From Stomorhina lunata (Eukaryota > Arthropoda > Insecta > Diptera > Rhiniidae): DNA of 64,000 bases. Below the pieces are notes generated by a model. That model was not told the DNA's origin and did no database searches. It saw only the letters and a program-made list of their open reading frames with translations. Below, one piece after another: positions 1,474-62,130 of the stretch. The translations under genes were made by a program, and so were the position numbers. The stretch covers positions 19,917,651-19,981,650 of the forward strand of contig OW121743.1 in assembly GCA_933228675.1 (NCBI GenBank), in the 5' to 3' direction. Positions within the stretch are counted from its first letter, which is position 1. Each line of letters starts with the position of its first letter.

Positions 1474-1507
1474 TCAAAAAGAAGTGTATTTGCATTTGAT
1501 CCCAAAC

Positions 1508-1535
1508 CTGTTACATTTATTTATTAATGTAACAG
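1508..1535. other. 10-bp stem, 8-nt loop hairpin in left foldback arm
   Basis: CTGTTACATT (1508-1517) pairs perfectly with AATGTAACAG (1526-1535) around the loop TATTTATT. The same hairpin occurs in each partial and full unit of the foldback. A sequence-diverged version with the same stem and loop lengths is found at 8212-8239. Conserved geometry despite stem changes suggests a functional structure, perhaps in the element's RNA. Confidence 0.8.
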
Positions 1536-1583
1536 ATCAATTTATTGATAAAAAGCCAAAAAATGTTTGCGGAGAAACCAAAT

Positions 1584-1629
1584 TCCTCGACGCGTTTCGA
1601 TGGTTGGTTAAGCCATCTCTTCAGGAGGA
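1584..1629 (-). ncRNA. Hammerhead ribozyme motif, left arm
   Basis: On the - strand the order is stem I GAGGA complement (1625-1629), CUGAAGA core (1618-1624), stem II GAUGG/CCAUC, GAA core, ACGCGU, C17 at 1589, then the stem I return GAGGA (1584-1588). All conserved hammerhead core positions (CUGANGA and GAAA) are present and both flanking stems pair. Predicted cleavage lies between 1589 and 1588. Stem III is only the self-complementary ACGCGU, so activity may need two copies, as known for short-stem-III hammerheads. It is the mirror of the right-arm copy. Confidence 0.82.
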
Positions 1630-2465
1630 TTATCCCCAATTTAGACAGATCGAAAACCTCGCATTATTACTAAATTTACAAACATAACTATTAAGAATTA
1701 TGTTCATAAACCAAAAGTAAAAGCGTAGATTATCGACTGAACAAAAACAAACATTTTTCAGTTTTCATCTACCTTCACTTCCCACATTCTTGCTGTAGCC
1801 GTCGGTTACTATATGCAGAATGCTGTGAAGAAGGGGGGGGGGGGGGGGGTAAGATGTTTTAAAATAAACAAGTTTATTTTAAAAAAATAAGCTGAATGCA
1901 TGCAGTTTTATCAAAAAATAACAAAATAGTCGGGATGTAAATATTATTCAAAAAGAAGTGTATTTGCATTTGATCCCAAACCTGTTACATTTATTTATTA
2001 ATGTAACAGATCAATTTATTGATAAAAAGCCACGAGGAATTTGGTTTCTCCGCAAACATTTTTTGGCTTTTTATCAATAAATTGATCTGTTACATTAATA
2101 AATAAATGTAACAGGTTTGGGATCAAATGCAAATACACTTCTTTTTGAATAATATTTACATCCCGACTATTTTGTTATTTTTTGATAAAACTGCATGCAT
2201 TCAGCTTATTTTTTTAAAATAAACTTGTTTATTTTAAAACATCTTACCCCCCCCCCCCCCCCTTCTTCACAGCATTCTGCATATAGTAGCCGACGGCTAC
2301 AGCAAGAATGTGGGAAGTGAAGGTAGATGAAAACTGAAAAATGTTTGTTTTTGTTCAGTCGATAATCTACGCTTTTACTTTTGGTTTATGAACATAATTC
2401 TTAATAGTTATGTTTGTAAATTTAGTAATAATGCGAGGTTTTCGATCTGTCTAAATTGGGGATAA

Positions 2466-2511
2466 TCCTCCTGAAGAGATGGCTTAACCAACCATCGAAA
2501 CGCGTCGAGGA
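2466..2511 (+). ncRNA. Hammerhead ribozyme motif, right arm
   Basis: Visible in order: stem I 5' strand UCCUC (2466-2470); catalytic core CUGAAGA (2471-2477); stem II GAUGG (2478-2482) pairing with CCAUC (2492-2496) around a 9-nt loop; core GAA (2497-2499); A15.1 to U16.1 as ACGCGU (2500-2505); cleavage residue C17 at 2506; stem I 3' strand GAGGA (2507-2511). This matches the CUGANGA/GAAA hammerhead consensus at every core position, including the G-C pair closing stem II. Stem III is minimal and self-complementary, as in retrozyme and Penelope-type ribozymes that act as dimers. Cleavage after 2506 would release an RNA starting GAGGAATTTGG, which is also where the element's repeat unit begins (2034 and 2507). 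Confidence 0.87.
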
Positions 2512-2657
2512 ATTTGGTTTCTCCGCAAACATTTTTTGGCTTTTTATCAATAAATTGATCTGTTACATTAATAAATAAATGTAACAGGTTTGGGATCAAA
2601 TGCAAATACACTTCTTTTTGAATAATATTTACATCCCGACTATTTTGTTATTTTTTG

Positions 2658-4070
2658 GAAAAATATTTCTAGCGAAAATTTTTCTATAGAAAAATATTTC
2701 TAGCGAAAATTTTTCTATAGAAAAATATTTTTAGCGAAAATTCTCCTACAGAAAAATATTTCTAGCGAAAATTTTTCTATAGAAAAATATTTCTAGCGAA
2801 AATTTGTCTATAGAAAAATATTTCTTGCGAAAATTTGTCTATAAAAAAATATTTCTAGCGAAAATGTTTGTATAGAAAAATATTTCTATAGAAAAATTTT
2901 CTATAGAAAAATATTTCTATAGAAAAATTTTCTATAGAAAAATATTTCTATTGAAAATTTTTCTATAGAAAAATATTTCTATAGAAAAATATTTCTATAG
3001 AAAAATATTTCTGTAGAAAAATATTTCTATCGAAAATTTTTCTTTAGAAAAATATTTGTATCGAAAATTTTTCTATAGAAAAATATTTCTATCGAAATTT
3101 TTTTCTATAGAAAAATATTTCTATCGAAATTTTTTTCTATAGAAAAATATTTCTATCGAAATTTTTTTCTATAGAAAAATATTTCTATCGAAATTTTTTT
3201 CTATAGAAAAATATTTCTATCGAAATTTTTTTCTATAGAAAAATATTTCTATCGAAATTTTTTTCTATAGAAAAATATTTCTATCGAAATTTTTTTCTAT
3301 AGAAAAATATTTCTATCGAAATTTTTTTCTATAGAAAAATATTTCTATCGAAATTTTTTTCTATAGAAAAATATTGCTATTGAAAATTTTTCTATAGAAA
3401 AATATTGCTATTAAAAATTTTTCTATAGAAAAATATTGCTATTGAAAATATTTCTATCGAAAATTTTCTATAGAAAAATATTTCTATCGAAAATTTTTCT
3501 ATAGAAAAATATTTCTATCGAAAATTTTTCTATAGAAAAATATTTCTATCGAAAATTTTTCTATAGAAAAATATTTCTATCGAAAATTTTTCAATAGAAA
3601 AATATTTCTATCGAAAAATTTTCTATAGAAAAATATTTCTATCGAAAATTTTTCTTTAGAAAAATATTTCTATCGAAAATTTTTCTTTAGAAAAATATTT
3701 CTAGCGAAAATTTTTCTTTAGAAAAATATTTCTATCGAAAATTTGTCTTTAGAAAAATATTTCTGTCGAAAATTTTTCTATAGAAAAATATTTCTATCGA
3801 AAATTTTTCTATAGAAAAATATTTCTATCGAAAATTTTTCTATAGAAAAATATTTCTATTGAAAATATTTCTATAGAAAAATATTTCTATTGAAAATTTT
3901 TTTATAGAAAAATATTTCTATTGAAAACTTTTTTATAGAAAAATATTTCCATCAAAAATTTTTCTATAGAAAAATATTTCTAAAATTTTTCTATAGAAAA
4001 ATATTTCTATGAAAATTTTTCTATAGAAAAATATTTCTATCGAAAATTTTTCTATCGAAAATTTTTCTAT
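2658..4070. repeat. Minisatellite family A (array resumed after foldback)
   Basis: This continues the 31-bp repeat in the same orientation. It is more varied than the left array: most units read TATCG or TATTG instead of TAGCG. A block at about 3085-3365 is a homogeneous run of roughly nine units of a 32-bp variant with GAAA followed by seven T, showing local homogenisation. Units decay towards 4070. Confidence 0.95.
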
Positions 4071-5971: not shown

Positions 5972-6519
5972 CAGGGTGGCCCAAAAAGGCCGAAGGGGGG
6001 AAAGCAAACTGCATAAATTAATCGTTCTTGGGAATCTCATGGCTTTAGTTCTTGCACTAACTGCACCTTGTATGTGAAAAGATTTAAAATTCCCTTTAAT
6101 ATTTTGCGTAAAAACCGCCAAGCTCAGCAGAGCGCCTTCGAGTTGATGTTTCAGGATTCTCCTCAACACTCTCCAGAACGCGTTGAATATTTGCTTTACT
6201 AATAACAGAATGTGGTCTTCCGCTTCGTGGAAGATTCCTCACTGAGCCTTGTTCCTGAAAACGTGTCACTAAGCGTCGAATCATTGTTTCGGATGGTGAA
6301 TTTCGCACATTAAAATGACGACGATAGGCTCGTTGAGTTTGAATTATTGATCGTTGAAGATAAAGTTCTATGATTTTGGTTCGCTGGATAACGTGGTAAC
6401 CTTTCATAATTAATCTCCCAGATTGATTTTACAAGTCCTTAAAAGAAAAATAATAATAATAATTAAATTAGAGAAGTTATTAATTTTTCAAATCCGTTCG
6501 CGACTTTTGGGCCACCCTG
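5972..6519 (-). mobile_element. Internally deleted Tc1/mariner-type element
   Basis: The ends are perfect 15-bp inverted repeats, CAGGGTGGCCCAAAA at 5972-5986 and its complement ending at 6519. The element is flanked on both sides by TA (5970-5971 and 6520-6521), the target duplication expected for the Tc1/mariner superfamily. At 548 bp it is much shorter than an autonomous element of about 1.3 kb or more. It encodes only the N-terminal part of a transposase on the - strand, so it could move only with a transposase supplied in trans. Confidence 0.9.
6096..6407 (-). pseudogene. Transposase N-terminal DNA-binding fragment
   Basis: The 103-residue frame begins MKGYHVIQRTKIIELY. Residues about 5-60 look like the helix-turn-helix seen at the start of many insect mariner-like transposases (DUF4817 type), with the family phrases TMIRRLVTRFQEQGSV and PRSGRP. 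A second helix-turn-helix begins at TRRRSAELG near residue 88 and is then broken: the reading runs into unrelated residues because the DDE catalytic domain has been deleted. A remnant of sequence next to the 3' inverted repeat follows. It is not expected to be catalytically active, though a DNA-binding fragment could in principle be made. Confidence 0.8.
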
Positions 6520-6521
6520 TA

Positions 6522-8150
6522 TAATGATTTATCTTTGCTTTTTATCACCTTTCGCCTCTCTACTATCCCCTTTCCAAAGAAGGTTACCCAATTCGCAAAT
6601 ATTCTATATACAATTGTATATGCAGTCTTTGCCTAAGTGTTACTTCTCTTCATTTTTTTTTAAAGTCCAAAACCTGTTTATTTCCTAGTAAAATTTCCCG
6701 GTGAAGCTTGGTAAAAATTTGCCCTCGACACAATGCAAAATCGACCCACCACTAGCGCTTCAATAGATGACTGTGCCATGCGTTAGCACCCGCTCCAATG
6801 ATCATGGCCATATCCTGCTTGTTTTCCAGTTCTGACTTTGTCCAGACTTGGCTGGAGATAGATAGATCCTACACTGGTCTTGTAGGCCTTTACCTATAGA
6901 AAATAATGAAGAATTTATCTTCATCACTCCAAGGCGGCATCTGTTGGATAGGAGCTAGTAATGATCCAGGAACCCTGACTCTATCCAGAAAGGATTCAAT
7001 GATTGTTACCAAAAGCTTCTACAAGTCAGCGGATGAAGCAGGTTAGGGGTGTGTATTCAAAAAGTTTACTTCACATCTTCATTCTTTCCGCTATTAAGGT
7101 ATTGATGTGAGATACTGGCCCATATAACAAGAGATAGCCTGTATAGATCCTAGATCCTGATCTCCTGGGCTCCTATCTCATCGCTGCAAACGGAAAGAAT
7201 TAAGAAATAATTTTCATCACTCTAAGGCAGAAGCTTATTCGCATTGTTGATCGTGAATAGCAGCTAGTGATGATCCAGGAATCCAGGCTGGTGACTACTA
7301 GTGTAGGAATAGAAAATAATGAAAAATTAATCCTTATCACACCAAAGCAGCATCTGTTAAACGTGGATAGAAGCTTGTGATGATCCAGGAACTCTGGCTC
7401 TATCCAGAAAGTATGCTATGGTTGTTACTAAAAGGCTATAAGCTCCTACAAGCCAGCGGATGAGGTAGGTTAGGGGCATGTATTCTAGCTGAGAGCTCTC
7501 TTAACATCTTCATTTTTGTCGAAACTGTAGTCGCGAGTCTATTGATCAATTAAGCTAGTGGTGATAAGCTGTATCCTGAGTTATTACCAGCTTCTCGTCC
7601 CTTTTCCTTCAGCATTGCAAAGGAAAAGGGCAGAAGCGGATGTCTTGTGATGAAGATTATTCTATATAATTTTCATCATTCTCCGTTATCGTAACAATTA
7701 TGATGCTGAAGTCATCCTGATCTACATCCTCATTATTTGGGTTTGAGTGAGCTTCCTCGTCAACTTTCATGTCCGTCATCAACATTACTAAGAGAGTCCA
7801 AAATGGGGAAAGCCTTTGCTGTTTCCTTATGTACAAAAACACAGAGCTTAAATCTTAACCAGGTAGGCTCAAGACTTTGCAGACTTCTTTCCGCAGTTTG
7901 AGCGCCAGTAGCTTGTACATTGGGTTGGCAATGGGATTCTTACATCCAAAGATTTTGAAGCTTCCGACCGAAAACATGAGGCTCATTGGTAGAAAAAAGA
8001 GAGGGTGCATTTATACTTAACTGACAAGTCGAATGGAGATATATCGGCCACTGGGAAGCCACACCGCTTCACAATGTGGAAAATAGACGTCCTGTGGATT
8101 TAAAAAGTTTCCAACCATTTTAAATTTTCTTTATTTAACACACTTTTTTT
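6522..8150. other. Unique region with decayed direct repeats and a strong hairpin
   Basis: It has higher GC than its surroundings. Blocks at about 6896-7060, 7191-7290 and 7310-7510 are diverged direct repeats sharing GATCCAGGA, CTATCCAGAAAG, CCAGCGGATGA and GGTTAGGGG. The mixture of shared phrases and indels looks like an old duplicated mobile element or gene fragment, but I find no consistent open frame. A 61-codon frame at 7657-7842 (-) is acidic at its end and has no recognised family. A long hairpin lies at 7590-7637. Confidence 0.5.
7590..7637. other. Strong imperfect hairpin, 17 bp
   Basis: GCTTCT (7590-7595) pairs with AGAAGC (7632-7637), and CCCTTTTCCTT (7599-7609) pairs with AAGGAAAAGGG (7620-7630). 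A 3-by-1 internal loop separates the stems and the terminal loop is 10 nt. Such a stem is unusual outside the satellites here. It could be a transposon end relic or a structured RNA; no known family is recognised. Confidence 0.7.
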
Positions 8151-8211
8151 TTGGGACACCAAATATTAAATTAAAAAGTTTTACTGTTGTGTATTGCACT
8201 ACAATCCCAAT

Positions 8212-8239
8212 TTATTACAATTATTTAATATTGTAATAA
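8212..8239. other. 10-bp stem, 8-nt loop hairpin, diverged copy
   Basis: TTATTACAAT (8212-8221) pairs perfectly with ATTGTAATAA (8230-8239) around TATTTAAT. Stem and loop lengths equal those of the hairpin at 1508-1535, and the loop differs at one base, while several stem positions differ on both sides so that pairing is kept. Confidence 0.7.
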
Positions 8240-8397
8240 ATAAAGAAAAGATAAAACTGAAAAATATTTGTGTGTTTCTGTTCAGATGATAATCTTCGCT
8301 TTATGATGATAATTGTTTGATACAATAATTCTTATTTATTCTGTCCCTCAAATAAGATATAATTTGTGCTTTTCCCTCGGTCTAGAATTAGGGATAA

Positions 8398-8443
8398 TCC
8401 TCCTGAAGAGATGGCCTAACCAAAAATCGAAACGCGTCGAGAA
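8398..8443 (+). ncRNA. Hammerhead ribozyme motif, diverged third copy
   Basis: Core elements are intact: CUGAAGA at 8403-8409, GAAA at 8429-8432, ACGCGU at 8432-8437 and C17 at 8438. The helices are weaker than in the foldback. Stem II keeps GAU/AUC (8410-8412 with 8426-8428) and stem I keeps CUC/GAG (8400-8402 with 8439-8441). The core is better conserved than the flanks, as expected from past selection on the ribozyme; present activity is doubtful. Confidence 0.6.
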
Positions 8444-8470
8444 ACAACATTTTGATGTTTGATGTCTCAA

Positions 8471-9053
8471 AATTTTTGAAAAACCCTTTTTACTAAGATC
8501 AAAATTGTTATAGACAATTTTCTCTTAAACTAAGAGCAAAATTTTTATAGAAAATTTTCTCTTAAACTAACAGTAAAATTGTATAGAAAATGTACTCTTA
8601 AATAACAGAAAACTTTTATAAATAATGTTTTCTTTAAATAAGTGTGACATTTTAATACAAAATTTTCTCTGTGAAAGTGAGTAAAATTTTATAAATTTGT
8701 TTTATGGAGTCAAATTTTGGTTTTTCCTACTAAAAGAGTGAATTTTCTCTTAGAAATTTTTTTTTAGAATTTTTGAAAAACCCTTTTTACTAAGATCAAA
8801 ATTGTTATAGACAATTTTCTCTTAAACTAAGAGCAAAATTTTTATAGAAAATTTTCTCTTAAACTAACAGTAAAATTGTATAGAAAATGTACTCTTAAAT
8901 AACAGAAAACTTTTATAAATAATGTTTTCTTTAAATAAGTGTGACATTTTAATACAAAATTTTCTCTTTGAAAGTGAGTAAAATTTTATAAATTTGTTTT
9001 ATGGAGTCAAATTTTGGTTTTTCCTACTAAAAGAGTGAATTTTCTCTTAGAAA
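8471..9053. repeat. Tandem duplication, 297-bp period
   Basis: Bases from 8471 repeat from 8768 with an offset of 297. The copies are almost identical; one visible difference is CTCTGTGAAAG versus CTCTTTGAAAG. Each copy itself contains loose repeats of ATAGAAAATTTTCTCTTAAA, related in vocabulary to family B. The duplication is recent relative to the age of its internal repeats. Confidence 0.92.
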
Positions 9054-15094: not shown

Positions 15095-15365
15095 AAGCAA
15101 ATTTTCTATAGAAAATAGAGTAAATTATCTATTGAAAATAGGCTCTTAAAAAGAGCAAGTTTTCTATAGAAAATATGCTCCTAAAAAGAGGAAATTTTCT
15201 ATAAAAAATAGGCTCTTAAAAAGAGCAAATTTTCTATAAAAAATAGGCTCTTAAAAAGAGCAAATTTTCTATAGAAAATAGGCTCTTAAAAAGAGCAAAT
15301 TTTCTATAGAAAATAGGCTCTTAAAAAGAGCAAATTTTCTATAGAAAATAGGCTCTCAAAAAGAC
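15095..15365 (+). repeat. Minisatellite family B, 35-bp unit (AAA-loop form)
   Basis: About seven units, each containing GCTCTTAAAAAGAGC (a 6-bp stem with AAA loop) and ATTTTCTATAGAAAAT (a perfect 16-bp palindrome). The array abuts family A directly at about 15366. Confidence 0.92.
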
Positions 15366-20230: not shown

Positions 20231-22210
20231 AGTTATAAAATAACAAATTTTCTGAAGAAAATAGGATTTTGAAAAGAAAAAATCTTGCATAGAATATAGA
20301 CTCTTAAAAAGAGCAAAGTTCCTATAGAAAATCGGCTCATAAAAAGAGCATAGGCTCTTAAAAAGAGAAAATTTCCTGTAGAAAATAGGATCTTAAAAAT
20401 AGCAAATTTTATATTCAAAATAGGCTCTTAAAAAGATTAAATTTGCTATAGAAATTAGACTCTTTAAAAATAGAGTTTTCTTTAGAAAATAACCTCTTTT
20501 TAAGAGCAAATTTTTTGATAGAAAATAGGCTCTTTTTAAGAGCAAAATTTCTATAGAAAATAGGCTCTTTTTAAGAGAAAATTTTCTATACAAAATAGGC
20601 TCTTTTTAAGAGCAAATTTTTTTTATTGAAATAAGAATGTTTTTAAGAGAAAATTTGCTATAGAAAACATGATCTTTTTACTAGCAAATTTTCGATAGAA
20701 AATATTCTCTTTAAGAGCAAATTTTCTATTGAAAATAGGCTCTTTTTAAGAGCAAATTTTCTATACAAAATAGGCTCTTTTTAAGAACAAATTTTCTCTA
20801 CAAAATAGGCTCTTTTTAAGAGCAAATTTTCTATAGAAAGTAGGCTCTTTAAGAGCAAATTTTCTATAGAAAATAGGCTCTTTTTAAGAGCAAATTTTCT
20901 ATAGAAAATAGGCTATTTTTAAGAGCAAATTTTCTATAGAAAATATGCTCTTTTTAGAGCAAATTTTCTATAGAAAATAGGCTCTTAAAAAAAGCAAATG
21001 TTCTATTTTTAAGAGCCTATTTTGAATATAAAATTTGCTCTTTTTAAGATCCTATTTTCTATAGAAAATTTTCTCTTTTTAAGAGCCTATCTTTCTAAGA
21101 GCCTATTTTCTATAGAAAATTTGCTTTTTCTAAAATAGGCTTTCTATAGAAAATTTGCTCTTTTTAGGAGCCTATTTTTTATAGAACATTTGCTCTTTTT
21201 ATGAGCCTATTTTCTATGGAAAATATGCTCTTTTTATGAGCAAATTTTCTATAGAAAATAGGCTTTATAGAAAATTGGCTCTTAAAAAAAGCAAATGTTC
21301 TAGAGAAATTAGGCTCTTAAAAAGGCTCTTCAGCCTTTTCTATACAAAATTTGTTTTTTTAAGAGCCTATTTTCTATAGAAAATTTGCACTTTTTAAAAG
21401 CCTATTTTATTTTTATTTTTAAGAGCAAATTTTCTATAGAAAATATACTCTTTTTAAGAAAATATACTCTTTTTAAGAGCAAATTTTCTATAGAAAATAT
21501 ACTCTTTTTAAGAGCAAATTTTCTATAAAAAATATACTCCTTTTAAGAGCAAATTTTCTATAGAAAATATACTCTTTTTAAGAGCAAATTTTCTATAGAA
21601 AATATACTCTTTTTAAGAGCAAATTTTCTATAGAAAATATACTCTTTTTAAGAGCAAATTTTCTATAGAAAATATACTCTTTTTAAGAGCAAATTTTCTA
21701 TAGAAAATATACTCTTTTTAAGAGCAAATTTTCTATAGAAAATATACTATTTTTAAGAGCAAATTTTCTATAGAAAATATACTATTTTTAAGAGCAAATT
21801 TTCTATAGAAAATATACTCTTTTTAAGAGCAAATTTTCTATAGAAAATATACTCTTTTTAAGAGCAAATTTTCTATAGAAAATATACTCTTTTTAAGAGC
21901 AAATTTTCTATAGCAAATAGGCTCTTTAAAGAGCAAATTTTCTAGAGAAAATTGGCTCTTAAAATGAAAAAATTTTCTATAGAAAATAGGCTCTTAAAAA
22001 GGAAAAATTCTCTATTGAAAATAGGTTCTTAAAAAGAGCAAATTTTCCATACAAAAAAGCTCTTAAAAAGAGCGAATTTCCTATAGAAAATAGGCTCTTA
22101 AAAAAAGAAAATTTTCTATAGAAAATATACTCTTTTTTTAAGAGCAAATTTTCTACAGAAAATATGCTCTTTTTTTTTCTTTTTAAGAGAAAATGGACTC
22201 TTAAAGAGCA
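20231..22210. repeat. Minisatellite family B, mixed orientations and variants
   Basis: 35-bp units occur in both orientations. About 20240-20460 are AAA-loop units, about 20500-20960 are TTT-loop units, 21005-21420 is an inverted patchwork, and 21430-21905 is a homogeneous run of a variant with ATACTCTTTTTAAGAGC. Beyond this the units decay. Frequent switches of orientation within 2 kb imply repeated inversion or template switching. Confidence 0.92.
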
Positions 22211-23865: not shown

Positions 23866-25661
23866 ACACTTGCCGCCTTCCTAGACATTGAAGGCGCTTT
23901 TAACAACATAAAACCAGAGTCTATTATTTCAACACTATCGCATACGCGGACGATGTCGCTATAGCAGTGTCAGGAAAATTTCTTAACACCCTGTCACAAC
24001 GTCTTGAAATAGCCCTTGACATACTTAACCGTTGGAGCATCTCTAACGGCCTGGGAGTTAATCCCACTAAAACGGAACTTGTACTTTTCTCGCGGAAATA
24101 CAAAATACCCAACTTTACTCTTCCAAAACTAAATAAGGTTGAACTCGTGCTCACTGACCATGCCAAAGATCTTGGGGTCATTCTGGACTCAAAACTGTCC
24201 TGGAGCCTAAACACCCAATTTAGGGTGTCCAAAGCATCTATTGCACTCTACTCATGCAGAGGAGCCATAGGCAAAACCTGGGGACTCAATCCCACTAATA
24301 CTGTCTGGCTCTTCGACATGGTCGTCAAGCCTATACTAATGTATGGTGCGCTGGTTTGGTGGCCTGCACTAACCAACTCAAGCCAACGGAATTCTTTCAC
24401 AAAAATTCTAAGAACATCCGCTCTAATGATCACGGGTGCCCTAAAAACTACATCATCCAAGGCGCTCTTTGTTATGCTCAACTGGCTCCCAGTCGAATTA
24501 ATGGCACAACAAATTGCCCTTAACTCGGCTGTTCGACTTAGCACTATCGGAACCTGGTCCCATTCGCAATCAGGACACTCCACTATCCTGGATAAATTTA
24601 TAGATATCCCTGACAATATTGATTACTGCATTCCCACCCCACTCTTCGACAAATCCTTTACTGTAACTATCTCTGGAGACCCACCATCCTTTGATGATGA
24701 CTGTCTGGAGGTATATACGGACGGATCTAAGTCAAAGATGGGCGTGGGAGGGGGCTTCTTCATTCCGCTTTTAGGGAAGGAAATCTGTTTTAAGCTACCT
24801 GATCATTGTAGTATCCTTCAATCCGAGATATCGGCCATATATAGGGCTGCCAATTGGTTAAAATACTATAGAATATACGGCAGGGATATTCGCTTTTGTA
24901 TCGACAGTCAGGCTGCCATAAAATCCCTATCTAATGTCCACACGACATCTGTTCTTACTCGTAAATGCCGGGCATCTCTAAATGAGATGGCGAGACATTG
25001 CAATATCGAACTTTTTTGGGTACCCGGGCACAACAACATACCTGGTAATTCCACTGCGGACAGACTTGCTAAATCCGGTGCTCTCCTGGGTCAGGATAAC
25101 ATCGATCAATTTACGGGAATACCGCTATCCGCCTGCAAATCAGAAATTAGGCAACTTCTTTATGAATCAGCGCAGAACACCTGGTCCCTTGAAACTACTT
25201 GTTCAATATCCAGGCAAACATGGCCCACTTATGACAAGAAACGCCACAGACTCCGCAACCTAATCTCGACCCTAACAGGTCATTGTACTTTTGGGCTGCA
25301 TGCCAGAAGGCTTAACCTTCAACACCATGACTACTGCCGTAGCTGTCACAACGTTGAAGAGGAGGAAACGGTTACTCATCTTCTCTGCCACTGCCCCGCT
25401 CTCTCTTTTTCGAGAGCTACCTTTCTGGGAGCACTCTATCTGCATGATCTATCCGATCTAGCGAGTATTGACATTCGCAAAATAGAATCGTTTATCAGAG
25501 CTACAGGATGGCTTGAATAAGCCTCTCATCGATGGTCTGGAATTAATTATCTTTGTTCTCTTTTCCAGTCTATTTCCTGCAGGTACCACAAAGGGACCGC
25601 TTCTAGGACCCAAGTGACGCTGACTAACCATCGGCTGCCTGCCTAACCTAACCTAACCTAA
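23866..25661 (+). mobile_element. 5'-truncated, internally deleted LINE of the RNase H-bearing I/R1/LOA group
   Basis: The insertion sits in family B satellite. It starts inside the reverse transcriptase domain (5' truncation, usual for LINEs), lacks part of the RT core, and keeps the RNase H domain, the C-terminal Cys/His segment and the 3' UTR. It ends with four CCTAA units (25642-25661). The flanking satellite words TAAGAGCGTATTT (left) and TAAGAGCCTATTT (right) could be a target duplication but are also simply satellite sequence. The GC content is clearly higher than its surroundings, marking it as a newcomer. Confidence 0.93.
23869..25520 (+). pseudogene. LINE ORF2 fragment: broken RT plus intact RNase H
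   Basis: Bases 23869-23930 encode RT motif A (LAAFLDIEGAFNN). A junction between about 23920 and 23940 then changes frame and moves directly to motif C AYADD (23940-23954), so motif B and neighbouring residues, about 80 codons, are missing. From there the frame is open to the TAA at 25518-25520. Numbered from the codon at 23967, the RNase H acidic residues are D252 (VYTDGS), E287 (QSEISA), D313 (CIDSQA) and D365 (STADRLA), all present. The thumb region has PILMYGALVWW. The C terminus has a zinc-finger-like YCRSC...H...C pattern. The endonuclease and the RT N terminus are absent. No reverse transcription is expected from this copy; the RNase H part has no visible lesion, so it is young. Confidence 0.92.
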
Positions 25662-27041
25662 GAGCCTATTTTCTATAGAAAATTTGCTCTTTTTAAGAGC
25701 CTATTTTCTATAGAAAGTTTGCTCTTTTTAAGAGCCTATTTTCTATAGAAAATTTGCTCTTTTTAAGAGCCTATTTTCTATAAAAAATTTGCTCTTTTTA
25801 AGAGCCTATTTTCTATAGAAAATTAGCTCTTTTCAAGAGCCTATTTTCTATAGAAAATTTGCTCTTCTTAAGAGCCTATTTTTTGTAGAAAATTTTATCT
25901 TTTTAAGAGCCTATTTTCTATAGAAAATTTGCTATTTTTAAGAGCTTATTTTCTATAGAAAATTTGGTATTTTTAAGAGCCTATTTTCTATAGAAAATTT
26001 GATCTTTATAAGAGCCTATTTTCTATAGAAAATTTACTCTTTTTAAGAGCCTGTTTTCTATAGAAATTTTACTCTTTTTAAGAGCCTATTTTCTATAGAA
26101 AATTTGCTCTTTTTAAGAGCCTATTTTTTCTTGAACATTTGCTCTTTTTAAGAGTCTATTTTCTATACAAAATTTGCTCTTTTTTAAGAGCGTATTTTCT
26201 ATAGAAAATTTGCTCTTTTTAAGAGCCTATTTTCTACAGAAAATTTACTCTTTTTAAGAGCCTATTTTCTATAGAAAATTTGCTCCTTTTAAGAACCTAT
26301 TTTCTATAAAAAAATGTTGCTCTTTTTAAGAGCCTATTTTCTATAAAAAATGTTGCTCTTCTTAAGAGCCTATTTTCTATAGAAAATTTGCTCTTTTTAA
26401 GAGCCTATTTTCTATAGAAAATTTGCTCTTTTTAAGAGCCTATTTTCTATAGAAAATTTGCTCTTTTTAAGAGCCTATTTTCTATAGAAAATTTGCTCTT
26501 TTTAAGAGCCTATTTTCTATAGAAAATTTGCTCTTTTTAAGAGCCTATTTTCTATAGAAAATTTGCTCTTTTTAAGAGCCTATTTTCTATAGAAAATTTT
26601 CTCTTTTTAAGAGCCTATTTTCTATAGAAAATTTGCTCTTTTTAAGAGCCTATTTTCTGTAGAAAATTTGCTTTCTTTAGGAGCCTATTTTCTATAGAAA
26701 ATTTGCTCTTTTTAAGAGCCTATTTTCTATAGAAAATTTGCTATTTTTAAGAGCCTATTTTCTATAGAAAATTTGCTCTTTTTAAGAGCCTATTTTCCAT
26801 AGAAAATTTTGCTCTTTTTAAGAACCTATTTTCTATATTTTCTATAGAAAATTTTCTCCTTTTAATAGCCTATTTTCTATAGAAAATGTTGCTCTTTTTA
26901 AGAGCCTATTTTCTATAGAAAATTTGCTCTTTTTAAGAGCCTATTTTCTATAGAAAATTTTCTCTTTTTAAGAGCCTATTTTCTATAGAAAATTTGCTCT
27001 TTTTAAGAGCCTATTTTCTATAGAAAATTTGCTCTTTTTAA
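25662..27041 (-). repeat. Minisatellite family B, 35-bp unit (reverse orientation)
   Basis: About 39 units containing GCTCTTTTTAAGAGC and CTATTTTCTATAGAAAATTT. The stretch 26370-26640 is very homogeneous. Confidence 0.96.
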
Positions 27042-28080
27042 ATAAACCTTAAATTCCTTTGAAATTTCACTTACCAAAAATTCTTTAATAAATATTTTAA
27101 ATAAATCGTTTAATTTAAAATTTATTACTTTATTATTGAAAATCCAAAGGAAAAATTCTTATAATTCCCCCCTTTTTTGACTGAATAAATATTTATTTAC
27201 CCACCTAAAAAGAAATTAAGGACATTATTTATGTACGAGTTGTATGACCTCAAGAAAAATTAAAATTTATGAATTATTAATTATTAATTTAACCTTGAAA
27301 TTTTAATTGTTTAAAGTTTTTTTCTGTTTAGAAAATTTATTTATTATTAATAATTCATTTTTAAAATATGTATACCAAAAAGCGTGTGGATTATAAATAA
27401 ATCAACTCATGTAAATATTTATTTAAACGAATTTTTCTCCTAAAAATAAGTTTAATAAAATTTGTCAAGTACGTGCTAAAATTAGTTTAAATAAATTAAA
27501 TAAAATTAATGGGAAATACTTATAGAAATATTTGTTCCCAATTTAAACTCTTGAAATTATTTTTAAAACCTTTTCCTTTCCGGATTTCGTTTGAAAAGAC
27601 TTTTTGCATGTCAAAATAAAATTAATTTTCCCTAAAGTATTTTCCCATTTTTCTCGAATCTGTTTTAATTTAATTTCTCTTTAAAATGCGCCAAAAAGTT
27701 GTTTTTATTGTTTAACATTTTGTGTTTTTTCTTTCGCTTTTCCTTAAGTAACTTAACTTTTTTTCTTCCTTTTCTGTTTTTCTTTAAAATTTTTATCTTT
27801 GGCGAAAAATAAAGTTTTAGTATCTTAATTTTTCTTAATATTCTTTTAGTTTTTCTTGTTTATTTTTCACAATTTTCCAGTTAAGTGTTGTAAATTGCTT
27901 AAGTTTTTTTTGTTTGTTTCGTGAAGAAACAAACTCTGGGAAAACAAGAAATTTTTTAAAACTAAATTAAAGACAAGGCAAAGCATTTGACATTTTGGAA
28001 AATTAAAGACAAATGTCTTTAACCCTATAAGGACAAATTGAAAAGGAAATTTGCCGTACAAAAATGAATTTTAGAACCTC
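27042..28080. other. AT-rich unique DNA
   Basis: Runs of TTATTAATTATTAATTTA-type sequence and long T-rich stretches. A 64-codon frame at 27867-28061 (-) is not convincing. Nothing else is recognised. Confidence 0.55.
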
Positions 28081-29750
28081 ATTTCAAGAGCAATTTTCTA
28101 TAGAAAATTTTTCTTTTTTAAGAGCCTATTTTCTATGGATAATTTGCTTTTTTTTAAGAGCCTATTTTCTGTAGAAAATTTTCCTTTTTTAAGAGGCTAT
28201 TTTCTGTGGAAAATTTTCTTTTTTTAGAGCCTTTTTTCTATAGAAAATTTGTTCTTTTTAAGAGCCTATTTTCTATAGCAAATTTGCTCTTTTTAGTAGA
28301 AAATTTGTTATTTCTCTGTAGAAGATTTGCTCTTTTTAAGAGCCTATTTTGTATAGAAAACTTGCTTCTTTTAAGGGGCTACTTTCTATAGAAAATATGT
28401 TATTTTTAAGAGCGTATTGTCTATAGAAAATTTGCTTCTTTTAAGAGTCTATTTTCTATAGAAAATTTGCTCTCTTTGAGAGCCAATTTTCTATAAAAAA
28501 TTTGCTCTTTTAAAAAGCTATTTTCTATAGAAATTTGCTCTTTTTAAGAGAATAATAATAATAAGAATAATTTATATAATTTGTTCTTTCTAGGAGACTA
28601 TTTTCTATCGAAAATTTGTTTTTTAAGAGCCTATTTTCTATAGAAAATTAGCTCTTTTTGGGAGCCTATTTTCTATAGAAAATTTACTCTTTTGAGGAGC
28701 CTAATTTCTATAGAAAAAAATTTGCTCCCTTTAAAAGCCTATTTTCTATAGAAAATTTGTTCTTTTTTAAAGCCTATTTTCTAAAGAAAAATTGCTGATT
28801 TTAAAAGTATATTTTCTATGGAGATTTGCTCTCTATAGAGATTTTGCTCTTGCCTATTTTCTACAGCAAATTTGTTCTTTTTTAGAGCCTATTTTCTATA
28901 GAAAATTTGTTCTTTTTCAGGACCTATTTTATATAGAAAACCTGCTCTTTTTTAAGAGCATATTTTTGTAGAAAATTTTCTCTTTTAAAGAGCCCATTTT
29001 CTACAGAAAAATTACTCTTCTTAAGAGCCAATTTTCTGTAGAAAATTTCTTCTTTTTTATAGAAAATTTTCGAGCCTATAAAATTTTAGGCTATTTTTCG
29101 TAGAAAATTTGCTCTTTTAAGAACCTATTTTCAGTAGAAAATTTCAGATAGAAAATTTTCCATTTTTAAGAGTTTAATTTCTATAGAAAATTTGCTCTTT
29201 TTATAAGCCTATCTTTAAGAGCTCTTTTTAAGATGTTGTTTTCTTTAGAAAATTTGCTCTTTTTAAGAGCTTGTTTTCTTTAGAAAATTTGATCTTTTTA
29301 TGAACCTGTTTTCTTTAGAAAATTTGCTCTTTGTAAGAGCTTATTTTCTAAAGAAAAAAATTTTTTTAAGAGCTTGTTTTCAATAGAAAATTTGCTCTTT
29401 TTAAGAGCCTATTTTATATAGAAAATTTGCTATTTATAAGAGCATTTTTTATTTTTAGAAAATTTTCTCTTTTTATAAGCTGGTTTTCTACAGAAAATTT
29501 GATCTTTTTAAGAGACTATTTTCTATAGAAAATTTGGTGTGTTTAAGAGACTGTTTTCTATAGAAAATTTGCTCTTTTTAAGAGCTTGTTTTCTATAGAA
29601 AAGTTGCCCCTTTTTAAGAGCTTGTTTTCTTTAGAAAATTGGCTCGTTTTAAGAGTTTGTTTTCTGTAGAAAATTTGCTCTTTTTAAGAGATTGATTTCT
29701 TTAGAAAATTTGCTCTTGTTTTTTATAGAAATGTTGGTCTATTTAAGAGA
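28081..29750 (-). repeat. Minisatellite family B, degenerate array
   Basis: Same unit and orientation as 25662-27041, but with many substitutions and indels. TTGTTTTCTTTAGAAAAT variants dominate after 29220. It is an older, less homogenised version of the array. Confidence 0.93.
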
Positions 29751-31560: not shown

Positions 31561-33330
31561 ACCGGAACTTAACAAAATAGGCCATTAAAAAGCAATAAGC
31601 TCTTAAAAAGAGCAAATTTTCTATAGAAAGAGCAAATTTTCTATAGAAAGTAGGCTCTTAAAAAGAGCAAAGAGAAAATTTTCTCTAGAAAATAGGCTTT
31701 TCAAAAAATCAAATTTTCTCTTAAAAATAACTAAAAAAATATGCTACTCAAAAGAGCAAACTTCTGATAGAAAATGGGCTCTTAAAAAAAGCAAATTATC
31801 TATAGAAAATAACCTCTTAAAAAAAGCAAATTTTCTATAGAGAATAGGCTCTTAAAAAGAGCAAATTTTCTATAGAAAATAGACTCTTAAAAAGAGCAAA
31901 TTTTCTATAGAAAATATGCTCTTAAAAAGAGCAAATTTTCTATAGAAAATATGCTCTTAAAAAGAGCAAATTTTCTATAGAAAATAGGCTCTTAAAAAGA
32001 GCAAATTTTCTATAGAAAATAGGCTCTTAAAAAGAGCAAATTTTCTATAGAAAATAGGCTCTTAAAAAGAGCAAATTTTCTATAGAAAATAGGCTGTTAA
32101 AAAGAGCAAATTTTCTATAGAAAATAGGCTCTTAAAAAGAGCAAATTTCTATAGAAAATAGGCTCTTAAAAAGAGCAAATTTTCTATAGAAAATAGGCTC
32201 TTAAAAAGAGCAAATTTTCTATAGAAAATAAGCTCTTAAAAAGAGCAAATTTTCTATAGAAAATAGGCTCTTAAAAAGAGCAAATTTTCTATAGAAAATA
32301 GGCTCTTAAAAAGAGCAAATTTTCTATAGAAAATATGCTCTTAAAAAGAGCAAATTTTCTATAGAAAATAGGCTCTTAAAAAGAGCAAATTTTCTATAGA
32401 AAATAGGCTCTTAAAAAGAGCAAATTTTCTATAGAAAATAGGCTCTTTTTAAGAGCAAATTTTCTATAGAAAATAGGCTCTTTTTAAGAGCAAATTTTCT
32501 ATAGAAAATAGGCTCTTTTTAAGAGCAAATTTTCTATAGAAAATAGGCTCTTTTTAAGAGCAAATTTTCTATAGAAAATAGGCTCTTTTTAAGAGCAAAT
32601 TTTCTATAGAAAATAGGCTCTTTTTAAGAGCAAATTTTCTATAGAAAATAGGCTCTTTTTAAGAGCAAATTTTCTATAGAAAATAGGCTCTTTTTAAGAG
32701 CAAATTTTCTATAGAAAATAGGCTCTTTTTAAGAGCAAATTTTCTATAGAAAATAGGCTCTTTTTAAGAGCAAATTTTCTATAGAAAATAGGCTCTTTTT
32801 AAGAGCAAATTTTCTATAGAAAATAGGCTCTTTTTAAGAGCAAATTTTCTATAGAAAATAGGCTCTTTTTAAGAGCAAATTTTCTATAGAAAATAGGCTC
32901 TTAAAAAGAGCAAATTTTCTATAGAAAATAGGCTTTTAAAAAGAGCTAATTTTCTATAGAAAATAGGCTCTTAAAAAGAGCAAATTTTCTATAGAAAATA
33001 GGCTCTTAAAAAGAGCAAATTTTCTACAGAAAATAGGCTCTTAAAAAGAGCAAATTTTCTATAGAAAATAGGCTCTTAAAAAGAGCAAATTTTCTATAGA
33101 AAATAGGCTCTTAAAAAGAGCAAATTTTCTATAGAAAATAGGCTCTTAAAAAGAGCAAATTTTCTATAGAAAATAGGCTCTTAAAAAGAGCAAATTTTCT
33201 ATAGAAAACAGGCTCTTAAAAAGAGCAAATTTTCTATAGAAAATAGACTTTTAAAAAGAGCAAATTTTCTATAGAAAATAGGCTCCTTAAAAAGAGCAAA
33301 TTTTCTATAAAAAATTAGCTCCTTAAATAA
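31561..33330 (+). repeat. Minisatellite family B, highly homogeneous 35-bp array
   Basis: About 50 units; 31987-32021 is a clean AAA-loop unit. From 32441 to 32895 exactly 13 consecutive 35-bp units carry TTT instead of AAA in the hairpin loop, with everything else unchanged. AAA-loop units then resume. Near identity across 1.4 kb indicates very recent amplification. Confidence 0.97.
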
Positions 33331-34370: not shown

Positions 34371-36640
34371 TTCGAGCGTACTGTTTTACTAATGATAAGC
34401 TCCAATCGTGGGTACTGTATAACTATCCATTAGCTTTATTCGTCGGTACTATGTGACTATCGTTTAGCTTAAATCATAGGTACTATATGACTATTGATCA
34501 GCTTCAACCGTGGGTACTATATTACTATAGGTTATCTCCAATATTGGATACTATATAACTATCGATTAGCTCCAATCGTGGGTACTATATAACTATTGAT
34601 CAGCTTCAATCGTGGGTACTATATAACTATCGATTAGCTTCAATCGTGGTTACTATATACCCATTGATAAGCTTCAACCGTGACTACTATAATACTATTG
34701 ATTAGCTTCAACCGTGACTACTATATTACTATATATTATCTTCAATCGTAGGTACTATATAACTATTGATTAGCTTCAATCGTGGGTACTATATAATTAT
34801 TGATTAGCTTCAATCGTGGGTACTATATTACTATCGTTAAGCTTCAATCGTGGGAACTATATAAGTATCGATTAACTTCAATCGTGGGTACTATATAACT
34901 ATCGATTAGCTTCAATCCTGGGTACTATATAACTATTTTACTATTATCTTCAATCGTGGGTACTATATAACTATCGATTAGCTTCAACCGTGACTACTAT
35001 ATTACTATTGATTAGCTTCAACCGTGACTACTATATTACTATAGATTATCTTCAATCGTAGGTACTATATAACTATTGATTAGCTTTAATCGTGGGTACT
35101 ATATTACTATCGTTAAGCTTCAATCGTGGGTACTATATAAGTATCGATTAGCTTCAATCGTTGGTACTATATAACTATCGATTAGCTTCAATCCTGGGTA
35201 CTATATAACTATTGATTAGCTTCAATCGTGGGCACTATATAACTATCGATTAGCTTCAATCGTGGGTACTATATAACTATCGATTAGCTTCAATCCTGGG
35301 TACTATATAACTATTGATTAGCTTCAATCGTGGGTACTATATAACTATCGATTAGCTTCAATCGTGGGTACTATATAATTATTCATTAGCTTCAATCGTG
35401 GGTACTATATTACTATAGATTATCGTCAATCGTAGGTACTGTATTACTATCGATGAGCTTTAATCGTGGGTACTGTATTACTATCGATTAGCTTTAATCG
35501 TGGGTACTATATAACTATTGATTAGCTTCAATCGCGGGTACTATATTACTATAGATTATCTTTAATCGTGGGTACTGTATTACTATCGATAAGCTTCAAT
35601 TGTGGGTAGTATATATTATTATCGATTAGCTTCAATCGTATGTACTACATAACTATTGATTTGCTTCAACCATGAGTACTATATTACTATAGATTATCTC
35701 TAATCGTGGAAACTGTATTACTATCGATTAGCTTCAACCATGAGTACTATATTACTATAGATTATCTCTAATCGTAATTACTATATTACTATCGATTAGC
35801 TTTAATCGTGGGTACTGTGTTACTTTAGATTACCTTCAATCGTTGGTAGTATATAACTATCGATTAGCTTCAATCGTAATTACTATATTACTATCGATTA
35901 GCTTCAATCGTGGGTACTATATATATAACTATCGATTAGCTTCAATCGTGGGTACTATATAACTATCGATTAGCTTCAATGGTGGTACTATATAACTATC
36001 GATTAGCTTCAATCGTGGGTGTTACATTACTATCGATTGGCTTTAATCCTGGGTACTGTATTACTGTCGATTAGCTTCAATCGTGGGTAGTATATAACTA
36101 TTGATTAGCTTCAATCGTAGGTACAATATAAATATTGATTAGCTTCAACTGTGGGTACTATATTACTATAGATTATCTCGAATCATGGGTACTCTATTAC
36201 TATCGATTATCTTCAATCGTTTGTAGTATATAACTATCGATTAGCTTCAATCGTGGGTATTATATAACTATTGATTAGCTACAATCGTGGGTACTATATA
36301 GCTATCGGTTAGCATCAATCGTGGTTACTATATTTCTATCCATTAGCTTCAATCTTGGATACTACATAACTATCGATTAGCTTTAATCATGAGTACTATA
36401 TAACTATTGATATGCTTCAATCGTAGGTACTATAGTAATATCGATTAGCTTCAATCGTGGGTATTTTATTACTATCGATTAGCTTCAATCATGCGTACTA
36501 TATAACTATTGATTAGCATCAGTCGTGGGTACTATATTACTATCCATTAGCTTCAATTGTGGGTACTATATTACTATCAATTAGCTTCAATCTCGGCTAC
36601 TACATTTCTATCCATTAGCTTCAATCGTGGTTCATAAGTA
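34371..36640. repeat. Minisatellite family C, 34-bp unit (array 1)
   Basis: Sixty-plus units; 35255-35288 is a clean example, made of TTCAATCGTGGGTACTATAT plus AACTATCGATTAGC. Divergence between neighbours is moderate, with common variants TTACTAT and TTTAATCG. Non-coding. Confidence 0.96.
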
Positions 36641-38605: not shown

Positions 38606-41600
38606 TTGATATTGACTAGCTTTAATCGTAGTTACTATATCACTATCGGTTAGGTTCAATCGTGGGTATTGTATTTCTATAAATTGCCTTCAATCGTGGG
38701 TACTATAATACTATTAATAAGCCTCAATCGTGAGTACTATATTACTATTGATTCTCTTTAATCGTGGGTACTGTATAACAATCGATTAGCTTTAATCGTG
38801 GGTACTATATTACTATTGATTGGATTTAATCGTATGTACTATATAGCAATCGATTAGATTCAATCGTGGATGCTATTTAACTATCGATTAGCTTCAATCG
38901 TGGGTACTATATAATTATCGATTAGCTTCAATCGTCGGTATTATATAACTATAGATTAGCTGTAATCGTGGGTACTATATTACTATCGATTAGCTTTAAT
39001 CGTGGGCATTCTATTACTATCGATTAGCTTAAATCGTGGGTGCTCTATAAGAATCGATTAACTTCAATCGTAGATATTATAGTACGTTCGATTAGCTTCA
39101 ACCTTGGATACTATATAAGTATCGATTAGCTCTAATCGTGGGCATTATATAACCATCGATTAGCTTTAATCATAGATATTATAGTACGTTCGATTAGCTT
39201 CAACCGTGGATACTATATAAGTATCGATTAGCTTCACTCGTGGGCATTGTTTAATTATCGATTAGCTTTAATCGTGGGAACTTTGTAACTATCGATTAGC
39301 TTTAATCGTGGGAACTATATAACTGTCGATTAGATTCACTATATTACAATCAACTAGCTTTGTTTGTGGGTACTATACTATTATCGATTAGCTTCAATCG
39401 TGGGTATTACATAATTATTGATTTGCTTCAATCGTAGGAACTATATAACTATCGATCAGCTCCAATCGTGGGTACTGTATTACTATCGATTAGCTTTAAT
39501 CGTAGGTATTATATAAGTATCGATTAGCTTCAATCGTAGGAACTATATAACTTTATATTAGCTTTAATCGTGGGTACTATATAATTATCGATTAGTTTCA
39601 ATCGTCGGTACTATATAACTATCGATTAGCTTTACTCGTAGATATTATAGGACGTTCGATTAGCTTCAACCGTGGATACTATATAATTATCGATTAGCTT
39701 CAATCGTGGTCATTATATAACGGTCGATTAGCTTCAATCGTGGGAGCTATGTAACTATCGATTAGCTTTAATCGTGGAAACTATATTACTATCAATTAAC
39801 TTCAATCGTGGGTACTGTATTACTATCAATTAGCTTCAATAGTGAGTATTACATAATTATTGATTTGCTTCAATCGTAGTAGCTATATAACTATCGATCA
39901 GCTCCAATCGTGGGTACTGTATTACTATCGATTATTTTTAATCGTAGGTATTATGTAGCAATCGATTAGCTTCAATCGTGGGCACTATATTACAATCAAC
40001 TAGCTTTGATTGTGGGTACTATATTACTATCGATTAGTTTCAATCGTGGGTACTATATTACTATCGTTTTGCTTTAATCGTAGATATTATAGTACATTCG
40101 ATTAGCTTCAACCGTGGATACTTTGTAAGTATCGATTAGTTTCAATCGTGGGCATTATATAACTATCGATTAGCTTTTATCGTCGGAACTATGTAACTAT
40201 CGATTAGCTTTAATCGTGGGAACTATATTACTATCAATGAACTTCAATCGTGGGTACTGTATTACTATATAACTGTCGATTAGATTCACTATATTACAAT
40301 CAACTAGCTTTGTTTGTGGGTACTATACTATTATCGATTAGCTTCAATCGTGGGTATTACATAATTATTGATTTGCTTCAATCGTAGGAACTATATAACT
40401 ATCGATCAGCTCCAATCGTGGGTACTGTATTACTATCGATTAGCTTTAATCGTAGGTATTATATAAGTATCGATTAGCTTCAATCGTAGGAACTATATAA
40501 CTTTATATTAGCTTTAATCGTGGGTACTATATAATTATCGATTAGTTTCAATCGTCGGTACTATATAACTATCGATTAGCTTTACTCGTAGATATTATAG
40601 GACGTTCGATTAGCTTCAACCGTGGATACTATATAATTATCGATTAGCTTCAATCGTGGTCATTATATAACGGTCGATTAGCTTCAATCGTGGGAGCTAT
40701 GTAACTATCGATTAGCTTTAATCGTGGAAACTATATTACTATCAATTAACTTCAATCGTGGGTACTGTATTACTATCAATTAGCTTCAATAGTGAGTATT
40801 ACATAATTATTGATTTGCTTCAATCGTAGTAGCTATATAACTATCGATCAGCTCCAATCGTGGGTACTGTATTACTATCAATTAGCTTCAATAGTGAGTA
40901 TTACATAATTATTGATTTGCTTCAATCGTAGTAGCTATATAACTATCGATCAGCTCCAATCGTGGGTACTGTATTACTATCGATTATTTTTAATCGTAGG
41001 TATTATGTAGCAATCGATTAGCTTCAATCGTGGGCACTATATTACAATCAACTAGCTTTGATTGTGGGTACTATATTACTATCGATTAGTTTCAATCGTG
41101 GGTACTATATTACTATCGTTTTGCTTTAATCGTAGATATTATAGTACATTCGATTAGCTTCAACCGTGGATACTTTGTAAGTATCGATTAGTTTCAATCG
41201 TGGGCATTATATAACTATCGATTAGCTTTTATCGTCGGAACTATGTAACTATCGATTAGCTTTAATCGTGGGAACTATATTACTATCAATGAACTTCAAT
41301 CGTGGGTACTGTATTACTTCCAATAAGCTTCAATCGTGGGTATTACATAATTATTGATTTGCTTCAATCGTAGGAACTATATAACTATCTATCAGCTCCA
41401 ATCGTGGGTACTGCATTACTATCGATTAGCTTTAATCGTAGGTATTATATAACTATCGATTAGCTTCAATCGTAGGAACTATATAACTTTCGATTAGCTC
41501 AAATCGTGGGTACTACATAACTATCGATTAGTTTCAATCGCGGGTACTAAACTACTATCGATTAGCTTTAATTGTGGGTGCTATATTACTATTTATTATC

Positions 41601-42180
41601 TTCAATCGTGAGTACTATATTACTATCGATTACCTTCAATCGTGGGTATTGTATAACTATAAATTTGCTTCGATCGTGGATAATATATTACTATTGATTA
41701 GCTTTAATCGTGGGTACTATATAATAATCGATTAGCTTCAATCGTGGGTACTATATTACTATCGATTAGCTTCAGTCGTGAGTACTTTATAACTATCGAT
41801 TAGATTCAATCGTGGGTACTATATTACTATCGATTAACTTCAATCGTGGGTACTGTATTACTATCAATAAGCTTCAATCGTGGGTATTACCTAATTATTG
41901 ATTTGCTTCAATCGTAGGAACTATATAACTATCGATCAGCTCCAACCGTGGGTACTGTATTACTATCGATTAGCTTTAATCGTAGGTATTATATAACTAT
42001 CGATTAGCTTCAATCGTAGGAACTATATAACTTTCGATTAGCTCAAATCATGGGTACTATATAACTATCGATTGGTTTCAATCGTCAGTACTATATAACT
42101 ATCGATTAGCTTCAATCGCGGGTACTATATTACTATCGATTAGCTTTAATTGTGTTTGCTATATTACTTTTTGTTATTAT
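38606..42180. repeat. Minisatellite family C, 34-bp unit (array 2)
   Basis: About 105 units in the same orientation as array 1, ending abruptly near 42150. The interior contains a ~950-bp higher-order tandem duplication (see separate entry). Confidence 0.96.
39315..41318. repeat. ~950-bp higher-order tandem duplication inside family C
   Basis: The segment from about 39315 to 40266 recurs from about 40265 to 41318. The offset is exactly 950 bp on the left and becomes 1052 bp from about 40870, because the second copy holds one extra 102-bp (three-unit) duplication. The lines compared appear identical over hundreds of bases although individual 34-bp units within a copy differ from each other, so whole blocks were duplicated very recently. 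Confidence 0.93.
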
Positions 42181-61790: not shown

Positions 61791-62130
61791 CCTAGGTTCT
61801 GTTCTATATTCTGTTGTAGGTTCTGTTCTAGGTTCTATTCTATATTCTGTTGTAGGTTCTGTTCCAGTTCTGTTCTAGTTCTGTTCGAGTTCTGTTCTAG
61901 TTCTGTTCTAGTTCTGTTGTAGGTTTTGTTGTAGTTTTGTTCTAGCTTCTGTTCTAGGTTCTTTTCTAGGTTCTGTTCTGGGTTCTTTTCTAGGTCCTGT
62001 GTTAGGTTCTTTTCTTGGTTCTGGTCTAGGTTCTGTTCTCGGTTCTGTTCTACTTGGCTTCTAGTTTTGTTCTAGTTCTGTTATGTTCTAGTTCTGTTAT
62101 GCTCTTGCTATGTTAAACTCTAGTTTTGTA
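61791..62130. repeat. Degenerate edge of satellite E1
   Basis: Variants such as GGTTCTGTTCTAGG and TATTCTGTTGTAGG with 12-14 bp spacing decay into unique DNA, as expected at the edge of a tandem array. Confidence 0.9.

Follow-up and report, generated by a model that had tools for sequence, protein, structure and literature searches.

Metazoan non-LTR retrozymes with type I hammerhead ribozymes are found as tandem repeats of 150-450 bp (PMC7229834, in part). According to the same portion of that source, a stable helix III is present in most invertebrate retrozymes and absent from the amphibian forms and from the forms in Penelope-like elements (PLEs). Hammerheads of the amphibian type, in which helix III comprises one pair and a self-complementary tetraloop, work poorly as monomers and better as dimers (PMC7229834, in part). 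PLEs are a strong candidate for mobilising animal retrozymes, on the basis of common hammerheads, tandem copies and co-occurrence (PMC7229834 and PMC7761336, both in part).

Among Penelope insertions, the head-to-head arrangement is the most frequent inverted form, junction palindromes are consistent, and simple AT-rich targets are favoured; a 31-bp tail and an inverted pLTR that is 37 bp shorter are also described (PMC3846280, in part). The purified PLE of Anolis cuts and extends both DNA strands and prefers AT-rich DNA. Its reverse transcription starts at two adjacent internal sites, and the sequence between them becomes a tail of 30-40 bp. Ribozyme cleavage is unnecessary for insertion by this enzyme in vitro, and no reads begin or end at the cut (PMC11167929).

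The locus described here lies in a stretch of 64,000 nucleotides from the fly Stomorhina lunata (the window). An insertion at 1475-2657, delimited by arm alignment and repeats, is composed of a head-to-head pair of partial tandem copies of a 473-nt hammerhead unit. Unit positions are numbered from the first base past the predicted ribozyme cut, and one full unit, from ribozyme cut to ribozyme cut, is located at 2034-2506 on the + strand. The right arm (2034-2657, sense on the + strand) comprises unit positions 1-473 and then 1-151 at its outer end. The left arm (1475-2032, sense on the - strand) runs from unit position 31, at 2032, to 473 and then from 1 to 114/115 at its outer end, position 115 being a base common to arm and flank. 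At the head-to-head junction (2033) is a single C, which is unit position 473 (C17) or else was added without a template.

Each arm consists of one unit, with a direct length of 473 nt in the right arm and 474 nt in the left, followed by part of a second unit; the right arm holds about 1.3 copies. The reverse complement of the left arm (1474-2032) is identical to the right arm (2064-2621) in 557 of 559 columns (99.6%), the only differences being a substitution and a step in a C run. The foldback is asymmetric, with arms of 624 nt (right) and 558 nt (left) and 31 unpaired nucleotides at its centre (2033-2063). The earlier note on this DNA had reported a near-perfect inverted repeat built from a 473-nt unit, a description that stands with its coordinates correct to 1 nt. 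It had missed the target repeat at both ends, the start of one arm at the ribozyme cut, and a diverged copy at 8249-8445.

The ends of the two arms do not coincide within the unit. The outer ends are found at unit positions 114/115 (left) and 151 (right), 36-37 nt apart, and at the inner ends the right arm reaches unit position 1 and the left arm stops 30 nt short of the head. The start of the right arm matches the predicted ribozyme cut to within 1 nt, the margin being one ambiguous C. By simple arithmetic, an arm end would fall at the cut by chance with a frequency of about 3/473 for a given end and 6/473 for either inner end. A scan of 2026-2056 for inverted repeats of at least 4 bases found no junction palindrome beyond one perfect 4-bp inverted repeat.

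The unit has a G+C content of 33% and contains no open reading frame, its longest ATG frames being 41 aa (sense) and 36 aa (antisense). At one unit position, a homopolymer is present as 17 G in the left arm (1833-1849) and 16 C in the right arm (2247-2262); runs of 16-17 G or C are odd for a window with 28% G+C. Weak self-matches in the unit (four 28-nt matches at 86% and two at 93%) were dropped as hairpin arms inside the unit.

The insertion target is a 31-bp AT-rich minisatellite, which forms the left flank (1-1474) and, in the same orientation, the right flank (2658-4070). A 13-mer resembling a target-site duplication (TSD), GAAAAATATTTCT, is present at 1462-1474 and again at 2658-2670; the two copies match exactly, and the bases adjoining them differ. 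With the insert and one 13-bp copy removed, the rejoined flanks agree with the minisatellite consensus in every base (124/124). In a 31-bp tandem repeat such as this target, the 13-bp duplication is ambiguous, being only a 13-bp phase shift that an 18-bp loss would explain just as well.

Other arrays are located elsewhere in the window. Long 11-bp satellite arrays (TAGTTCTGTTC and TAGTTCAGTTC) occupy 59780-62095 and 63364-64000, with 96% and 99% matches, respectively. Arrays of 35-bp units that appear by eye to be related, seemingly in both orientations, are found at 15113-15364, 20261-22174, 25659-27041, 28078-29717 and 31736-33327. Four large arrays of 34-bp units whose consensus units, compared by eye, have TTCAATCGTGGGT in common (34394-36630, 38610-42168, 43631-45556 and 48910-50683) are apparently diverged forms of one minisatellite.

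Both arms contain the invariant hammerhead core, CUGANGA ... GAA ... UH, with stems I and II. The type I hammerhead of the right arm (2458-2524, + strand) includes CTGAAGA at 2471-2477, stem II as GATGG/CCATC, GAAA, ACGCGT, and C17 at 2506, after which cleavage is predicted. Stem I (TCCTC/GAGGA) has an internal loop, and loop II has 9 nt. The mirror core of the left arm extends on the - strand from 1624 down to 1589, with a predicted cut after the C at 1589; the outer coordinates of this hammerhead (1571-1637) follow from symmetry with the right arm. An earlier claim that each strand bears a hammerhead with a full core and paired stem I is borne out, with only one complete hammerhead per strand. 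Helix III is one A-U pair closing a self-complementary CGCG, and a stable helix III is absent from the monomer; from its form, it is possible that the motif is a dimer-type hammerhead. An ATG inside stem II (2479-2481, + strand) is followed by GCT TAA, with 28 nt counted from the A up to and including the last base ahead of the cut; the diverged copy reads ATG GCC TAA at the matching place. The ATG could be there by chance.

Shuffled sequences rarely contain such a motif. When stems I and II were set to at least 4 bp and stem III to at least 2 bp, 2 of 20000 dinucleotide shuffles of the 624-nt arm gave a hit on the sense strand. Shuffles of the whole window (n=400, both strands) gave a mean of 0.0275 hits, and none had stems of 5, 5 and 2. 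In the window itself, a scan requiring stems of 4 bp or more recovered the two arms alone and missed the diverged copy. The looser pattern CTGANGA-N8..30-CGAAAC occurs at three places in the window, the two arms and the diverged copy, against 0.11 expected.

The earlier note had proposed a covariance-model check. At gathering threshold, an Rfam search of the whole window returned nothing, and a search of 1450-2700 (1251 nt) at E<=10 returned no hammerhead among 22 rows, each of which was below its own gathering score. Searches of 121-nt stretches gave a full-length match to Hammerhead_1 in each arm (23.1 bits, E 8.4e-4), a score that is below the gathering score of 34 bits; the low score may come from the minimal one-pair helix III. 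A twister-P3 row over the left-arm hammerhead (15.8 bits against a gathering score of 39.9, E 0.73) was taken as chance, and the central palindrome is the best explanation for the plant microRNA rows over 1947-2149.

One diverged relative of the unit is found in the 64-kb window, at 8249-8445 on the + strand. It corresponds to unit positions 292 to about 479, including the hammerhead block, and has 74.9% identity over 191 columns (E 1.8e-29); nhmmer places it at 8253-8445 (E 1e-21), and its Hammerhead_1 score is 16.7 bits (E 0.11). From GGGATAATCC onward, the hammerhead block is identical in 50 of 54 columns compared with 103 of 145 upstream (Fisher p 0.0011, with the block boundary picked after the alignment was seen). 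Two of the four differences in the block break stem II, one breaks stem I and one is in loop II, leaving both stems partly broken. None of the four is compensatory, and the copy lends no covariation support. Because the stem-breaking differences are uncompensated, this copy has probably decayed. No 8-16-base word suggestive of a duplication around it is shared between 7950-8262 and 8437-8520. Just upstream is an imperfect inverted repeat (8210-8241; 33 columns, 91%), and a similar hairpin is located upstream of the outer ends in the 473-nt unit. Perhaps these hairpins are analogous to the stem-loop where the Anolis PLE starts reverse transcription.

The RNA of the 473-nt unit folds more stably than its shuffles (z -5.69; 0 of 100 as stable). 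In minimum-energy folding of the isolated 70-nt motif, the hammerhead is not favoured and other structures are preferred. As a circle, the unit has a best predicted fold of -121.9 kcal/mol that is not the hammerhead, and enforcing the hammerhead gives -118.7 kcal/mol, a cost of 3.2 kcal/mol. For the full-length transcript, the predicted fold is a single long hairpin, with the whole hammerhead paired to the other arm. At equilibrium, as distinct from co-transcriptional folding, the hammerhead costs 3.2 kcal/mol above the best fold in the right arm alone, and when stems I and II are enforced in the entire foldback transcript the cost is 81.7 kcal/mol for either strand.

The idea that a transcript of the foldback from either strand would cleave itself is not supported by this comparison, given a ribozyme buried at that exposure cost, and the foldback as an active two-strand cleaver was rejected on it. 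Cleavage on both strands is also unlikely because each strand has one complete hammerhead with a dimer-type helix III. In the folding models, the inserted copy is probably no active two-strand cleaver. Rather than cleaving itself on both strands, the locus more likely is a dead insertion or, should it be transcribed, gives rise to long double-stranded RNA; double-stranded RNA from the foldback is speculation.

With this one insertion as the evidence, we lean towards a mechanism in which a non-autonomous hammerhead element of the retrozyme type was inserted once by PLE-type machinery, with both break ends priming reverse transcription. A multimeric RNA would be cut by its own hammerhead, yielding a linear template, 624 nt or longer, whose 5' end lies at the cleavage site. 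A PLE enzyme would make a staggered break with 13-nt 3' overhangs in the AT-rich minisatellite. Reverse transcription would be primed both by the top strand, from its end at 1474, and by the bottom strand, from its end at 2658, and would start at two internal RNA sites separated by 36-37 nt (unit positions 114/115 and 151). The two cDNAs, one extending all the way to the ribozyme cut and the other 30 nt shorter at that end, would then meet head to head, and filling in of the overhangs would create the 13-bp duplication.

Several observations favour this mechanism. The hammerhead core is rare in shuffled sequence (2/20000 for the arm) and has a full-length Hammerhead_1 match in both arms, and the hammerhead block is the better conserved part of the diverged copy. 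The 36-37 nt between the outer ends can be set beside the two adjacent start sites of the purified PLE, which account for its 30-40-bp tail. Because the right arm starts at the predicted cut, its template was probably a linear RNA of 624 nt or more that had been cleaved, and because the 624-nt arm is longer than one unit, that template would have exceeded a monomer. It may have been a multimer in which one hammerhead was cut and the next was uncut or, less simply, a circle read for more than one round and stopped at the cut. The polarity of both arms also fits: the antisense strand of each arm continues a 3' end of the target, and the element has its 3' ends outside and its 5' ends at the centre.

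Other observations count against it. At its start site, the left primer has a fair match to the RNA (8 of 12 bases, equalled by 12 of 473 sites), whereas the match of the right primer is ordinary (4 of 12 bases, a level that 244 of 473 sites reach). The lack of a match at the right end is in keeping with what has been reported for PLE start sites, for which homology is not needed (PMC11167929). Also on this side are the ambiguity of the TSD, the missing junction palindrome, the lack of a PLE gene among the 9 window frames put to Pfam, the Rfam scores below gathering, the uncompensated pairing changes in the diverged copy, the preference of the isolated motif for other folds, and the dispensability of ribozyme cleavage for the Anolis PLE in vitro.

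On balance, by analogy with PLEs, the insertion at 1475-2657 would have been made by PLE-type machinery, and the 473-nt unit perhaps descends from a PLE end. A fuller proposal is that the locus preserves, as a fossil, the mobilisation of a hammerhead retrozyme by Penelope-type machinery. The template would have been a linear multimer cleaved by the ribozyme, in place of a monomer circle, and the two ends of a single break would have served as primers. This proposal we regard as possible and put forward tentatively. If the proposal is true, then the head-to-head form of Penelope insertions would be linked to two-ended priming, and it would be known which enzyme moves animal retrozymes. A hammerhead unit with PLE-like ends and no open reading frame would be structural evidence for a link between retrozymes and PLEs, and the start of one arm at the ribozyme cut is relevant to what the hammerhead does in PLE-type transposition.

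Of 91 stop-to-stop frames of at least 55 aa outside satellites in the window, 9 were put to Pfam, and none of these 9 was a PLE gene. A 538-aa frame at 23904-25517 on the + strand has an RNase H domain (Pfam E 7.9e-11) and a sub-threshold end of a reverse transcriptase (E 1.1e-4), and on these matches looks like the remnant of a non-LTR retrotransposon. A 110-aa frame at 6099-6428 on the - strand matches DUF4817 (E 4.3e-12), with a sub-threshold match to HTH_32, and is transposase-like.

Other origins for the inverted arrangement can be considered. The same retrozyme and PLE-type enzyme might have been involved while the inversion came about through template switching or self-priming of one cDNA (hairpin synthesis), which we consider unlikely. 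Self-priming, which would need an antisense template, has been inferred from junction palindromes of rotifer Penelope copies (PMC3846280, in part), and the near-identity of the arms, with a single substitution and a single C-run step between them, is as expected if one arm were copied from the other. However, the junction has just the one 4-bp inverted repeat in place of a palindrome, and the cDNA end matches the stretch beside the left-arm start in only 5 of 12 bases, as well as 95 of 462 sites do, although a jump without homology is possible. Moreover, the outer ends are at different positions and each abuts a copy of the target repeat, neither of which one self-primed cDNA would need. Still less probable are two separate insertions of the unit, or a later inversion or replication slip in the array, with the PLE-like geometry arising by chance. 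AT-rich tandem DNA rearranges readily, and the TSD is only a phase shift in the repeat. Against such histories, the flanks rejoin around one insert (124/124 bases to consensus), no minisatellite is present between the two arms, the arms are identical in 557 of 559 columns, and one head is at the ribozyme cut.

The remaining explanations have far smaller probabilities. Long inverted arms and a short target repeat are features of a foldback DNA transposon with long terminal inverted repeats, in which the hammerhead-like sequence would be an accident. A cut-and-paste transposon needs matching ends, whereas the outer ends here differ in sequence (unit positions 114/115 and 151, an offset of 36-37 nt), and the arms overrun the tandem unit; this explanation was rejected as highly improbable. 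Near-identical head-to-head arms are also produced by missed-adapter reads or hairpin chimeras, and the locus could in principle be a fold-back artefact of sequencing or assembly. The flanks speak strongly against this, because they have the same orientation and are not mirrored: both sides match the same-strand repeat consensus at 62 of 62 bases and the opposite strand at 48, and the left flank matches the reverse-complemented right flank at 24 of 62. The arms, too, have different ends and two differences between them, and an artefact was rejected as more improbable still. Equally slight is the probability that the hammerhead is a chance look-alike in an unrelated repeat and was never a ribozyme. 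The Rfam scores below gathering, the preference of the isolated motif for other folds and the uncompensated changes in the diverged copy are what such a look-alike would give. The shuffle counts (2/20000 for the arm), on which this explanation was rejected, as well as the conserved block in the diverged copy and the arm boundary at the predicted cut, argue that the motif is not accidental.

The unit can be compared with several known systems, and its likeness to retrozymes and PLEs, suggested at the outset, is upheld by the shared hammerhead, the tandem unit without an open reading frame and the PLE-like ends. With the metazoan non-LTR retrozymes of Cervera and de la Pena (2020), it shares a short, ORF-less tandem unit of low G+C, a type I hammerhead, a self-paired unit and, if the ambiguous 13-mer is a true duplication, a TSD longer than 4 bp (PMC7229834, in part). 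It differs in its length, which at 473 nt is slightly above their range of 150-450 bp, and in its head-to-head arrangement, of which there is no mention in the portion of that source cited here. The newt satellite and axolotl retrozyme hammerheads resemble it in having a one-bp helix III with a self-complementary tetraloop (PMC7229834, in part). The unit length differs from theirs, loop II has 9 nt here, and the comparison is one of described structure. Transcripts of pDo500, an insect satellite of the cave cricket Dolichopoda, are reportedly processed by a hammerhead, as a study's title has it; the likeness to the unit here is in this processing and in a unit of about 500 bp.

Hammerhead strings of the 473-nt unit had 0 matches in viral and genome contig collections, neither of which was built from insects. 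Among papers with exact string matches, the one on hammerheads has artificial designs (PMC4191386, in part). A fly hammerhead unit like this one was not found in the literature searched, a scope that excluded most subscription journals.

In geometry the insertion resembles PLEs of the Penelope/Poseidon clade, the likeness extending to head-to-head arms, outer (3') ends offset by 36-37 nt with a further offset of 30 nt at the head, an AT-rich target with a candidate short TSD, and a minimal type I hammerhead with an ATG in stem II close before the cut. The foldback had been called unusual, a judgement that must be tempered, as inverted copies, head to head in most cases, are described as a common form of Penelope insertion (PMC3846280, in part). 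In contrast to PLEs, the insertion has no reverse transcriptase or GIY-YIG gene and is at most a non-autonomous relative, and in contrast to rotifer Penelope copies it lacks a junction palindrome. It also differs from the Anolis PLE, in which the ribozyme cut lies inside the reading frame (PMC11167929), in that one arm begins at the ribozyme cut.
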